Below are positions 18,595 through 40,754 of a stretch of 40,754 nucleotides of DNA, one piece after another. The notes below the pieces were generated by a model. It had not been told where the DNA came from, ran no database searches, and saw only the letters and a program-made list of their open reading frames with translations. This DNA comes from Oscillospiraceae bacterium (GTDB taxonomy: Bacteria > Bacillota > Clostridia > Oscillospirales > Ruminococcaceae): NCBI GenBank assembly GCA_014799325.1, contig JAAVIE010000007.1, positions 1 to 40,754 on the forward strand, given 5' to 3'. Each line of letters starts with the position of its first letter. Position 1 is the stretch's first letter. The position numbers were made by a program, and so were the translations under genes.

Positions 18595-19761
18595 GTGCCG
18601 ATAAACAAAATGACAGACAGCAAAGGTAAAGCAGTAAAGAACAAAGAGGGGTTACAAGGTTATAGGGTTAGGATCAATTACACTGACAGCAACGGAAAAG
18701 CAAGACAGGTGGAGCGGACAGCATACGGACTGGGAGAAGCGCAAACCCTTGAACAAAAGCTGATACAAGAATACAAGGACAAAAAACTGGTTGCCGCTTC
18801 AAAAATGACTATCAATGAATTATATACAGAGTATATGAAGTACCACGCCACCGAGACAAGAAAAAGCTCCGATATAAGCACGGCATCTAAGCTACAGAAA
18901 AGGGTGTTGCCTTATTTTGGAGAGTGTAGGCTTGACAAGCTGACACAAAAGGATCTTGCAGATTGGAAAATTGAGATCAGCAAACAAGATTTAGCATTAA
19001 GGACAAAACAAAATGGGTATATGGCTTTCCGAGCCTTGCTCAATTATGCGGTTAAAATGGAATATATACCCAAAAATCCTTTGACTGTCTTGGGCGGCTT
19101 TAAAGATGTTACAGGACTGAGTGAAAATTCCACCCCTGAAAAATTTCAATACTACACCGCTGAGCAATTCTTGAAATACATAGCCGCCGCAAAAGAAAAC
19201 TGTATCACTGTTACCGATTGGGGATATTATGTCTTTTTCAATATCCTGTTTTATTGCGGACTGCGCAAAGGTGAAGCCAACGCCCTTAAATGGTCTGATA
19301 TTAGGGGGAATATGATGTATATTCGCCGCAGCATTTTCCAAAAGGCAAAAGGGGAAGATGTTGAAACTGCCCCTAAAACTGCCAGCAGTAGCCGTGATAT
19401 TCAAATTCCCTTACCGTTAATGAAAATACTTGAAGAACACAAAGAACGGCAAAAGCAAGCCGCCGGGGAGCTATTCAGTGAAAATTTGAGGGTTTGCGGC
19501 TGTGAACGTCCATTGCGTGATACAAGTATAGAGAATAAAAACAAGGCTTTTTCCTCTGCAGCTGATCTGCCACACATACGCATACACGACTTTAGGCACT
19601 CCCACGCCTCTTTACTTGCCAACGAAGGGATAAACATTCAAGAGGTTGCAAGGCGGCTGGGTCACTCCAACGTAAAAATGACATTGAGTACATACTCCCA
19701 TTTATACCCAAGAGAGGAAGAACGGGCAATATCTGTATTGAACAAAATAGCGGAAAAATAG
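18595..19761 (+). CDS. int: Tyrosine recombinase / integrase of the element
   Basis: A 388-aa integrase with the layout of Tn916/phage-type enzymes: an N-terminal arm-binding domain (residues 1-65), a SAM-like core-binding domain (about 70-170) and a catalytic domain. Catalytic residues are visible: Arg 224 (CGLRKGEANAL), His 331 and Arg 334 (HDFRHSHAS), His 357 (RLGHSN) and nucleophile Tyr 367 (TLSTYSHLY). It starts at GTG 18595 with AAGGGG about 7 nt upstream. It sits directly inside the right end of the element beside the tRNA-Gln target, which identifies it as the enzyme that inserted the element. Confidence 0.95.
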   Translation: MPINKMTDSKGKAVKNKEGLQGYRVRINYTDSNGKARQVERTAYGLGEAQTLEQKLIQEYKDKKLVAASKMTINELYTEYMKYHATETRKSSDISTASKLQKRVLPYFGECRLDKLTQKDLADWKIEISKQDLALRTKQNGYMAFRALLNYAVKMEYIPKNPLTVLGGFKDVTGLSENSTPEKFQYYTAEQFLKYIAAAKENCITVTDWGYYVFFNILFYCGLRKGEANALKWSDIRGNMMYIRRSIFQKAKGEDVETAPKTASSSRDIQIPLPLMKILEEHKERQKQAAGELFSENLRVCGCERPLRDTSIENKNKAFSSAADLPHIRIHDFRHSHASLLANEGINIQEVARRLGHSNVKMTLSTYSHLYPREEERAISVLNKIAEK

Positions 19762-19834: not shown

Positions 19835-19856
19835 TGTGGTTGGGGCGGAAGGATTT
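19835..19856. other. attR within the tRNA-Gln 3' end
   Basis: The 22-bp sequence is identical to 12481-12502. It includes the tRNA CCA end, the 3' acceptor strand and part of the T arm. The tRNA remains intact after insertion. Confidence 0.9.
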
Positions 19857-19912
19857 GAACCCTCGAAATGGTGGAGTCAGAGTCCACTGCCTTACCACTT
19901 GGCGACGCCCCA
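19837..19912 (-). tRNA. tRNA-Gln (CTG anticodon)
   Basis: The minus strand folds as a standard cloverleaf: acceptor TGGGGCG/CGCCCCA, D arm GCCAAGTGGTAAGGC, anticodon stem GTGGA/TCCAC with loop CTCTGAC (anticodon CTG, reading CAG), T loop TTCGAAT, discriminator A and an encoded CCA. It is the integration target of the neighbouring element. A TTGACA-17-TAAAAT promoter lies just upstream. Confidence 0.95.
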
Positions 19913-20011: not shown

Positions 20012-20435
20012 AACTTGTGCCGGTTTGGTTCTTCAGAGAAGCCGTTCGAACAAGTGATTGCTTTTTGGGAGGTTGTGCGGTTGGTGACACGCTTTTCGTG
20101 AAGTTGGGCAGGCAGAGACCTGCTTTTAAGGAAAGTCGGCGGTAATTTGCTGATTTAAAAAGAATTTCAAAATTCTGAAAATGAAGGCTCCGATTGTCTG
20201 CTTTGGGCGTTGACGTCCTGTCAACGCTTTGGGCAGACAGCGCTTCATCCTTGAAGCGTGCCGCAAGCGGCATTCCGCTCCATTTTCAGAACCGGACAAA
20301 ATTTTCGGAGAAAATTTTGAGACTTCCGCGGGAAGTCATAGCCTTCTTTGAAATTCGTGCTGTCAAAGCAGTTGTGCGAGTGTCCGCCCGCTTAAAACCT
20401 GTGCTGTCAAAGTAATTGTGCAGAATCCCACACTA
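20012..20435 (+). repeat. Family A modular palindromic element, large copy
   Basis: The conserved left part (GGTTTGGTTCTTCAGAGAAG, then GGCGGTAATTTGCTGATTTA and GAATTTCAAAA at 20162) and right part (TTTGAAATTC at 20347, then CGTGCTGTCAAAGCAGTTGT) frame a cargo of nested hairpins. TTCTGAAAATG/CATTTTCAGAA encloses GTCTGC..GCGTTGAC/GTCAACGC..GCAGAC (20196-20238) and CGCTTCA/TTGAAGCG. Then follow AAAATTTTC/GAAAATTTT and GACTTCC/GGAAGTC. Other copies with different cargo are at 27.9, 31.9, 35.4 and 38.1 kb. Confidence 0.8.
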
Positions 20436-22247: not shown

Positions 22248-22307
22248 TGATATATATGATTTTTACAATATACCTTGATTTTTTTGTAAAATATGTTATG
22301 ATATATA

Positions 22308-22491
22308 ATACTAATACTCATTTTAAAAGAAGCTTGTCTACTTTTTAAATGCGCTGCTGCCATGCGGCAGTGCAGGAGGCAAAGCTCACTCAGGTATTGT
22401 AATGAACGTACATACCCCCTTGGCGGTTCTTTGGCAAAGCCGAGGGACTTTGACAGTAGATTTTATCTGCTGTCAAAATGGATATTAGTAT
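22308..22491 (+). repeat. Family B modular palindromic element B1
   Basis: Outer ends ATACTAAT (22308) and ATTAGTAT (22484-22491). Inside lie CTGCTGCCATGCGGCAG-like and TTGACAGTAGAT/ATCTGCTGTCAA hairpins. The same element occurs in reverse at 24992-25150, with parts of the interior altered. Confidence 0.8.
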
Positions 22492-22546
22492 AAAAAGCAA
22501 AAATGGCAAAAGCGATCAAAGGCAGCATTGTGGCTGAAAAATAATA

Positions 22547-22734
22547 ATACTAATTCTCGATCATACAATAGACTTTGTCTATTGTATGACGCCGCATTCA
22601 GGCAGATGTCAAAATCAAAGATCTTGACAGAATTAGTATTGAATGACTTTCCCGGCGGTTTCACTGCCAACGCCGTGCGCAGCGCGGTGAATCATACTGC
22701 AGACTATGTCTGCAGTATGATAAAGAAATAGTAT
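22547..22734 (-). repeat. Family B modular palindromic element B2
   Basis: Outer ends ATACTAATTCT (22547) and GAAATAGTAT (22725-22734). Contains ATCATACAATAGAC/GTCTATTGTATGA, GTCAAAATC/GATCTTGAC and TCATACTGCAGAC/GTCTGCAGTATGA. It is the reverse-oriented counterpart of the copies at 39072 and 40566. The last base is immediately followed by the AAGGAG of the next gene. Confidence 0.85.
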
Positions 22735-24991: not shown

Positions 24992-25150
24992 ATACTAATG
25001 CCCATTTTGACAGCAGATAAAATCTACTGTCAAAATCCTTCGGCTTTGCCGGAAGAAACGCCGGCGGCAGGTATATATGTTCAATACAATCCCAAAGAGG
25101 GCTATGCTCTTAAAAAGCAGCTTGTCTGTTTTTTAAACGGGTATTAGTAT
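24992..25150 (-). repeat. Family B modular palindromic element B3
   Basis: ATACTAAT (24992) and ATTAGTAT (25143-25150) ends. It contains TTTTGACAGCAGAT/ATCTACTGTCAAAA and CGGCTTTGCCG-type short palindromes. Reverse complement aligns with B1, but the middle segment is different. Confidence 0.8.
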
Positions 25151-25193: not shown

Positions 25194-25898
25194 TCATTTA
25201 TTGTTCAATGATCGCCTAATCTCCCTATGCTCCGGCATGACCTTATCTATTACCGCATAAAATTTTGCCGAATGGTTTTGCTGCAAAAAATGCGCCAGCT
25301 CATGGCACACCACATACTCGATGCAAAGTGGCGCTTTTTCTGTCAGAGAGCAGTTCAGGGTTATCTTTTTCTTGGAGGGCGTACAGCTGCCCCAGCGTGT
25401 TTTCATGGCTTTCACCGTTATTGCGGGATAGGGTATGGTAAACCCCGCATTGACGAACCTTTGGTACGCCTTTTTAAGGTAGTCGGGAAAAAGCTCCCTC
25501 GCCCTTTCCTTTTGCCAGCGGAGAATTATTTCATCTGTAAGCCTTTCTTTTTCGGAAATGTCAGGAACGGCGGCGGAGGGCAGGTACACTGTCAAGATCT
25601 TTCCCGAAAGCCAAGCAAAGGCTCTTTCCCCCTCTATGACTTCCACATCTATGGCTTCTCCTAAATAATACCGCTTTGAGGGAGAACTTTGGCTCGACTG
25701 TATAAGCCTGCTCTGATGCTTTAAAACAAAGTCCATGTGATTTTTCACAAACTCATCTGCTTTTGCAAGAGTCGTGCTTTTTGGCACCGAAACATACACC
25801 GTACCGTCCGAGCGTATTCTCAGATTGAGATTTTTCACGGATTTCCGCTCCAACTCAAAGGTTACTGTTCCCTTTTCGGTAGTGACCGAGCGTATCAT
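25194..25898 (-). CDS. YgjP-like (DUF45/M48-type) metallopeptidase
   Basis: A 234-aa soluble protein of the YgjP/WLM-related metallopeptidase domain family. The zinc site is HELAH (199-203), with a third ligand likely in the following NHS (His 209). The upstream motif TRWGSCTPSKKKITLN, then LIEYVVCHE-type (here CIEYVVCHELAH), is characteristic of the family. The cellular substrate is unknown; members are often near restriction or housekeeping genes. ATG 25898 is preceded by AAGGAAGTG about 5-8 nt upstream. Family B element B4 lies about 40 bp upstream, close to the expected promoter. Confidence 0.85.
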   Translation of the reverse strand: MIRSVTTEKGTVTFELERKSVKNLNLRIRSDGTVYVSVPKSTTLAKADEFVKNHMDFVLKHQSRLIQSSQSSPSKRYYLGEAIDVEVIEGERAFAWLSGKILTVYLPSAAVPDISEKERLTDEIILRWQKERARELFPDYLKKAYQRFVNAGFTIPYPAITVKAMKTRWGSCTPSKKKITLNCSLTEKAPLCIEYVVCHELAHFLQQNHSAKFYAVIDKVMPEHREIRRSLNNK

Positions 25899-25940
25899 GG
25901 CATCACTTCCTTTCCGAACCTATTTCCGGCAATGATCCTG

Positions 25941-26053
25941 ATACTATTTCTAAATTAAAATGATCGTAAATTTTTGGAGGTTAATTTAGAAATAGTGCTT
26001 TGGGTGTAATTCTATCTTAAAAATATAAAACCTTTTTAAGATAGAATTAGTAT
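25941..26053. repeat. Family B modular palindromic element B4, different cargo
   Basis: Outer ends ATACTATTTC (25941-25950) and GAATTAGTAT (26044-26053) match B2/B5/B6. The interior is unrelated: CTATTTCTAAATTAA/TTAATTTAGAAATAG and ATTCTATCTTAAAAA/TTTTTAAGATAGAAT. This shows that the ends are kept while hairpins are exchanged. Confidence 0.8.
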
Positions 26054-26064
26054 GAAAACACAAT

Positions 26065-27948: not shown

Positions 27949-28086
27949 GAATTTCAAAACCGCAAACTTTTTGAAATTCGTGCTATCAGAGAAGTTGTGC
28001 GAATGGTAGCCCGCCTTTAAGGAAACAGATGGTAATCTTTCGCCGCTTTTAGATGGTGTTGTGCTGATTATACAGCTCTGTCAGAA
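27949..28086 (-). repeat. Family A element, minimal copy without cargo
   Basis: GAATTTCAAAA (27949-27959) and TTTTTGAAATTC (27968-27979) are separated by only 8 bp, where the other copies hold 100-180 bp of hairpins. The right module follows (GTGCTATCAGAGAAGTTGTG, then CCGCCTTTAAGGAAACAGAT). It sits in the probable 5' UTR of rtcB. Confidence 0.75.
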
Positions 28087-35367: not shown

Positions 35368-35640
35368 CGGCTTATGGTTCTCTCAGGGAAGTTGGCGGTA
35401 ATTTACTTATTTAAAAAAGAATTTCAAAACCGCCAAGATTTAAATTTGCTTGAAAAACTGGGCAAATTTAAATCTTGTCTATCTAACTGAGTTCGGCTTT
35501 TTTGCTTGAAAAGTTGGGCAAAAAATCCGAACTCAGTTGATTTTTGAAATTCGTGCTATCAGGAAAGTTGTGAGAGTGGAAACCCGTCTTTAAGGAAACA
35601 GGTGATAATTTTTCACTGCTTTTGAACTCCTGCTGGAGCC
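35368..35640 (+). repeat. Family A modular element with two core-bearing hairpins
   Basis: Left module GGTTCTCTCAGGGAAGTTGG, then GAATTTCAAAA (about 35419), and right module TTTTTGAAATTC (about 35541), then GTGCTATCAGGAAAGTTGTG. The cargo is two hairpins, CAAGATTTAAATTTGC/GCAAATTTAAATCTTG (35434-35477) and AACTGAGTTCGG/CCGAACTCAGTT (35485-35538). Both carry the same centre, TTTGCTTGAAAA-nn-TGGGCAAA. Confidence 0.85.
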
Positions 35641-38103: not shown

Positions 38104-38470
38104 CTCCTAAGAAGCTTGGTGCTGATTTAGGTTCTCTCAGGAAAGTTGTGCTGATTTGGTTCTCTCAGGAAAGCTGGCGGTAATTTACTGATTTAAAAAA
38201 AATTTCAAAATTCCGAAAATGAAGCTCAATGGCACAAGCGCCAAGAGCTTCATTTTCGGAACCAGACAAAATTTTCGTTGAAAATTTTGTCCTTTTTGAA
38301 ATTCGTGCTATCAGGAAAGTGGTGAGAGTGGTGACCCGCATTATTAAACTTGTGCTATCAGGGCAGTTGTGAGAGTGGAAACCCGCTTTTAAGGAAACAA
38401 GTGATATTTTTTCACCGCTTTTAGAGGTGTTGTGCTGATTTTTACGGCTCTCCCAAGAACCTTGACATAA
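38104..38470 (+). repeat. Family A modular element with two-hairpin cargo and duplicated end modules
   Basis: The left module is duplicated (GTGCTGATTTAGGTTCTCTC, then GTGCTGATTTGGTTCTCTCA), followed by AATTTCAAAA. The cargo is TTCCGAAAATGAAGCTC/GAGCTTCATTTTCGGAA (about 38212-38261) and GACAAAATTTTC/GAAAATTTTGTC (about 38266-38292). The right module GAAATTCGTGCTATCAGGAAAG is partly duplicated as well and runs to CCTTGACATA. Confidence 0.85.
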
Positions 38471-39071: not shown

Positions 39072-39261
39072 ATACTATTTCTTTATCATACTGCAGACTA
39101 TATCTACAATATGATTCTTTGTGCTATGCACGGCGTTGACGGTGAAACCGCCAAGAAAGTTAGTTCAATACTGATTCTGTCAAAACCTTTGATTTTGACA
39201 GCCGTCCGGAGGGCGGCATCATACAATATACTTTGTCTATTGTTTGATCAAGAATCAGTAT
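39072..39261 (+). repeat. Family B modular palindromic element B5 between spmA and spmB
   Basis: ATACTATTTC (39072) and GAATCAGTAT (39252-39261) ends. Contains TCATACTGCAGAC/(T)ATCTACAATATGA, GTCAAAACC/GATTTTGAC and TCATACAATATAC/GTCTATTGTTTGA. Several stem positions have lost pairing, so this copy looks older than B2 or B6. Confidence 0.85.
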
Positions 39262-40565: not shown

Positions 40566-40754
40566 ATACTATTTCCTTATCATACTGTAGACTACGTCTA
40601 CAGTATGATTCGCCGTGCTATGCATGGCGTTGGCAGTGAAACCGCCAAGAAAGTTAGTTCAATACTAATTCTGTCAAAATCTTTGATTTTGACAGCCGCC
40701 TGAATGGCGGCATCATACAATAGACTTTGCCTATTGTATGATCAAGAATTAGTA
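40566..40754 (+). repeat. Family B modular palindromic element B6 (cut by window end)
   Basis: ATACTATTTC (40566) start, AGAATTAGTA at the window edge. Stems are intact: ATCATACTGTAGAC/GTCTACAGTATGAT, GTCAAAATC/GATTTTGAC, GCCGCC/GGCGGC and ATCATACAATAG/CTATTGTATGAT. It is very similar to B5 and to the reverse of B2. Confidence 0.85.

Follow-up and report, generated by a model that had tools for sequence, protein, structure and literature searches.

We analysed the repeat B4 in a 40,754-bp stretch of DNA (hereafter, the window) from an Oscillospiraceae bacterium and found that it belongs to a dispersed family of its own, whose copies insert with a 3-bp target duplication and whose hairpin arms change together. 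B4 is real and goes beyond chance. It is best explained as a non-autonomous miniature transposon of the MITE type, moved in trans via its short ends and inserted at TNA, a reading to which we assign a probability of roughly 0.8. In kind, B4 is an ordinary mobile element (a MITE), with an unusual history of fixed shape and changing sequence. B4 and its neighbouring gene are arranged as follows:

25197 to 25898, negative strand: YgjP-like metallopeptidase domain gene flanking B4 (Pfam PF01863, E = 2e-47)
25939 to 25941, positive strand: left copy of the target duplication, 3 bp, TGA in the sequence
25942 to 26052, positive strand: B4 proper, 111 bp, TACTA...TAGTA, too short for a transposase gene
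25943 to 25996, positive strand: hairpin 1 of the predicted fold, arms 25943-25958 (ACTATTTCTAAATTAA) and 25981-25996 (TTAATTTAGAAATAGT)
25997 to 26007, positive strand: linker between the hairpins, GCTTTGGGTGT, nearly invariant across subfamilies with completely different stems
26008 to 26048, positive strand: hairpin 2 of the predicted fold, arms 26008-26023 (AATTCTATCTTAAAAA) and 26033-26048 (TTTTTAAGATAGAATT)
26053 to 26055, positive strand: right copy of the target duplication, 3 bp, TGA in the sequence

The end sequences were located exactly at 25941-25950 (ATACTATTTC) and 26044-26053 (GAATTAGTAT), and the terminal inverted repeats, TACTATTTC and the reverse complement of GAATTAGTA, i.e., TACTAATTC, differed by one mismatch. 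Folded as single-stranded DNA, B4 reached -22.8 kcal/mol as compared with a mean of -5.8 for shuffled sequences (z = -8.6), and none of 200 shuffles matched it. The paired ends and the two hairpins that the first-pass annotation had reported are present, and each hairpin has 16-bp arms. The stems are not internal, as they had been called: each one reaches an end of the element, and ACTATTTC.. and ..GAATT are stem arms. The covariance model R1 searched against the window recovered B4 at 25939-26055 over the full model length (100 bits, E = 5e-18) and gave no other strong match there, the runner-up being the reverse strand of B4 itself. The start of the YgjP-like gene lies 43 bp away from B4.

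The ends of B4 are common to the B1/B3 and the B2/B5/B6 repeats of this genome, all of them flanked by a TNA repeat:

22306 to 22496, negative strand: B1, a member of the B3 family in inverted orientation; a relative in genome G001 hosts a nested insertion
22548 to 22733, negative strand: B2, family B; ends as in B4, a pair of three-hairpin domains, TTCAATACTAATTC linker, TTA flanks
24993 to 25149, positive strand: B3, a third family; TACTAAT ends that close a single domain, TTA flanks
39073 to 39260, positive strand: B5, family B; right end GAATCAGTA
40567 to 40754, positive strand: B6, family B; truncated where the window ends

The ends of B4 had been described as those of B2, B5 and B6; they do recur in these repeats, with the right end of B5 (GAATCAGTAT) one base off and that of B6 lost at the window edge. 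Genome-wide, ATACTATTTC alone was not enriched (43 matches vs 61 for the reversed pattern), and ATACTAATTC was strongly so (45 vs 1 for the reversed control). About 0.1 exact end pairs are expected by chance, a rough estimate from the match counts. The first-pass annotation had noted that ends lying unpaired throughout the genome would point to a chance match; of the ATACTATTTC loci examined, 13 had a right end at no more than 400 bp. The signal lies in the paired ends, and B4 therefore stands.

Side-by-side comparison of copies showed the plan of the B4 family to be TNA/TACTA-hairpin 1-TAGT-GCTTWGGGTG-TAAT-hairpin 2-ATTAGTA/TNA, with the terminal ends kept in every subfamily. The genome of origin contained three full copies and one partial copy; a search with B4 found the near-full copies C24 and C126, 90-91% identical to B4, and the partial copy C136. 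The covariance model detected the family in nine of 71 genomes of the genus and in none of the other 62, with four matches in the genome of origin and at least 49 in each of G001, G016 and G033. When 84,980 species were scanned for exact matches to the linker region, 51 stretches were obtained, of which nearly all lay in metagenome-assembled genomes labelled by their depositors as Oscillospiraceae, Ruminiclostridium, Clostridia, Bacillota or Bacteroides sp.; the few remaining matches fit the calculated chance expectation. The two-hairpin shape was not found in viral contigs, where the core had four matches. In the part of the G033 genome inspected, 50 of 51 copies were intergenic. Two G033 copies (L296 at C5:16480-16742 and L292 at C4:20734-21016) had an inverted-repeat element, GGGAACC...GGTTCC, nested within them with a TTAG duplication, as made by IS5-group elements. 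G033 also carried solo hairpins of ~51 bp with matching TNA flanks (C5:75701, C8:36582, C10:56345, C23:7773 and others), possibly mobile in their own right or left behind by deletion from the two-hairpin element. We did not retain them as a separate mobile unit, as deletion between short direct repeats accounts for them equally well. Clustering of the hairpin modules hints at mixing of hairpin 1 and hairpin 2 types, but was too rough to carry weight.

Evidence of insertion came from the flanks and from empty sites. Of 36 copies bounded by TNA at either end, 34 had the same middle base left and right (17 expected), and in a larger set the TNA flanks matched in 85 of 92 (51 expected), a figure reached by none of 20000 permutations. 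Because the agreement was direct and not complementary, it reflects duplication of the target rather than an extended inverted repeat. When the flanks of copies were joined and compared with all the DNA analysed, two exact empty sites appeared: in G033, a 95-bp copy interrupts a reading frame that is intact in G016 (TAA duplicated; join TTTAAAATCAC), and in G001 a copy sits within a B1/B3-like repeat, an intact copy of which was 97% identical. The spacer beside the YgjP-like gene lacked B4 in the seven relatives read, all with the gene order kept; none gave an exact empty site for B4 itself, their spacers being too diverged for the junction to be read. The B4 family is short, devoid of a transposase gene, bounded by terminal inverted repeats, dispersed in multiple copies, and provided with target duplications and empty sites, all of which are features of MITEs.

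A transposase supplied in trans would recognise the ends TACTAWT..., cut, and insert the element at TNA with duplication of 3 bp. The hairpins would be palindromes bearing one outer end apiece, and insertion would use the outermost ends only. As the searches gave no transposase with matching ends, we infer that a DDE enzyme acts in trans, its type being deduced from the fixed 3-bp length of the duplication; that B4, family B and B1/B3 share their ends suggests a single kind of transposase for all of them. Searches with PF01609, PF13340 and PF01797 revealed no transposase gene with TACTA ends. Larger elements with the B4 ends were absent from 1.58 Mb of G033 (the genomes are incomplete) and, at exact ends, from the genome of origin; a scan of G033 for elements of 0.3-3.5 kb with these ends turned up only separate MITEs in combination. 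The IS1031 group of the IS5 family has a 3-bp TNA target, and its duplication would fit the B4 family. However, derivation of the MITE from IS5/IS1031 is not supported: the IS5-type gene (PF13340) was not found in five of eight carriers (G000, G008, G016, G050 and G056), and the IS5-type genes of G033 and G001 were without TACTA ends. In G001, fragments of IS5-type genes (L247 in C31 and L251 in C87) adjoin GGCATTGTTTGAAAA ends that abut the MITE ends TACTA/TATTA, as if this insertion sequence preferred MITE ends as targets.

The two hairpins kept their pairing while their sequence changed. In alignment A1 (24 sequences), 96.8% of the cells were paired, a percentage biased upwards by a structure drawn on B4, vs 75.7% in shuffled and 31-52% with sliding partners. 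Twenty-four of the 32 base pairs had changed on both sides (11 of 16 in hairpin 1 and 13 of 16 in hairpin 2), with compensation counts far from both controls; two-sided changes were many and one-sided ones few. Between subfamilies, the linker was kept while both arms of the hairpins changed together. The linker GCTTWGGGTG would be retained as new subfamilies arise, and stem sequences would drift between lineages because little beyond the ends and the linker is fixed. That the arms stay complementary would mean that the palindrome matters, that a correction acts at the DNA level (e.g., replication template switching), or both. Inner arms were as conserved as outer ones, in a loose set whose truncated copies inflate the outer-arm values, and this equality counts against plain recognition of the outer ends, which does not predict it. 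Single changes in the stems produced G-T and A-C mismatches in a ratio of 46:50 (21:14 in an earlier set), with no preferred strand, when both were counted symmetrically; an extension that accepted G-T, but not A-C, as paired had given a biased 63:17. Since both mismatches are about equally frequent, the constraint or correction acts on DNA, which argues against selection on RNA.

The palindromes could also persist with no selection at all, template switching homogenising the arms after insertion in an architecture inherited from a single ancestor, and we regard this as a tentative but real possibility. Template switching between inverted repeats is described in PMC8604942 as homogenising arms and inverting the spacer, and the excess of two-sided over one-sided changes agrees with it. 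Perfect hairpins of family B (B2, B5 and B6; G000, G044 and G050) presented 3-base loops in both orientations (TTT/AAA, TAT/ATA, GAA/TTC), a sign that loops were inverted by template switching or when hairpins were resolved. However, none of 29 copies of B4-type hairpins showed loop inversion, and unrepaired single changes accumulate in the stems of resident copies. The proposal concerns stem evolution only and is compatible with B4 being a MITE. It is unlikely, in our judgement, that the recognition unit consists of the shape of a hairpin together with five to seven bases at the end, in which case one enzyme duplicating TNA would move elements of one, two or many hairpins whose stems are unrelated, and the hairpin, not its sequence, would be selected at the DNA level.

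The strong covariation, the fixed two-hairpin shape, the conserved single-stranded linker and the very stable fold of B4 would all suit a dispersed structured RNA, such as an mRNA element for regulation or stability, with hairpins conserved for RNA function. We nevertheless consider this improbable. A functional RNA should tolerate G-U and not A-C, whereas the two were equally frequent in both sets of stem changes; copies in the part of G033 inspected were balanced in their orientation relative to genes (13 vs 10); and the linker was not conserved within subfamilies, diverging as fast as the loops, and the stems less, in three of them in G033. Moreover, no Rfam family reached its gathering score in the window, where searches at gathering and E-value thresholds gave just chance miRNA-like matches, far under the cut-offs. 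The family also warns that strong covariation can arise in palindromes of mobile DNA that have no role as RNA, a pitfall for RNA searches based on covariation, and the G-T vs A-C count offers a simple guard against false RNA calls. With ends, linker and pairing staying across subfamilies as the stem sequence is replaced, the family is a natural experiment on what a transposase needs, and an example of how mobile DNA can retain shape as its sequence changes.

The first-pass annotation had taken B4 for a copy of family B with conserved ends and replaced cargo. The ends are indeed kept and the interiors differ, but the term cargo does not apply since the hairpins contain the ends, and B4 belongs to a separate family, with at least three full copies here, its own linker GCTTWGGGTG, and a presence in 9/71 genomes of the genus. 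These repeats are better viewed as several MITE families with common transposition ends, in each of which the hairpins turn over from species to species. Family B (B2, B5, B6) consists of two three-hairpin domains joined via the TTCAATACTAATTC linker and flanked by TTA; it was present in 6/71 genomes, and there too the stems are replaced between species. At six loci in other species (L363, L364, L365, L369, L373 and L378) its ends and the linker TTCAATACT[AG]AT were kept, the stems were largely replaced, and every flank read was TTA. A family B copy whose interior had been exchanged by recombination would agree with the common ends and with the modular behaviour of halves and hairpins, but it is disfavoured and we give it little credence: the B4 interior and linker recur together in G001, G008, G016 and G033, which have no family B match, and the B4 interior is therefore not a recent replacement within family B. 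The most doubtful proposal is that the hairpins are moved by a REP/RAYT- or IS200/IS605-like system, in which an HUH/Y1 transposase works on hairpins of single-stranded DNA; single or paired hairpin units, including the solo ones, and a strand-neutral, DNA-level structure would suit it, but such systems are not known to make a 3-bp duplication, which is present here, and the Y1 domain PF01797 was not found in five of the nine carriers (G001, G016, G035, G050 and G056), two of which hold at least 49 copies each.

As a MITE, B4 can be compared with known small repeats. The BOX elements of pneumococcus are, like the B4 family, modular hairpin repeats, but their boxA, boxB and boxC modules are related in sequence. 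RUP, Correia/NEMIS and other bacterial MITEs (PMC2229807, PMC10969869) are likewise ~100 bp, AT-rich, intergenic and dispersed, with terminal inverted repeats, target duplication and a stem-loop; the B4 family differs from these in its 3-bp TNA duplication (vs TA), its two side-by-side hairpins with a conserved linker, the replacement of stems between subfamilies, and a partner insertion sequence that was not found. In the CIR elements of Caulobacter and Brucella, as in B4, the 5' and 3' sections each form a long stem-loop on their own, but CIR elements are described as being without terminal inverted repeats or clear target duplication (PMC2229807). BrickBuilt of Porphyromonas is an IS5-type MITE (PMC4596501).

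Two other features were observed in the window. A separate repeat, TTTTTGAAATTCGTGCTATCAG..., lies between genes at 20344-20394, 27967-28017, 35540-35590 and 38292-38389. A phage-type integrase gene (18595-19761) adjoins a tRNA on the negative strand (19840-19912), and the pair is possibly the remnant of an integrated element.
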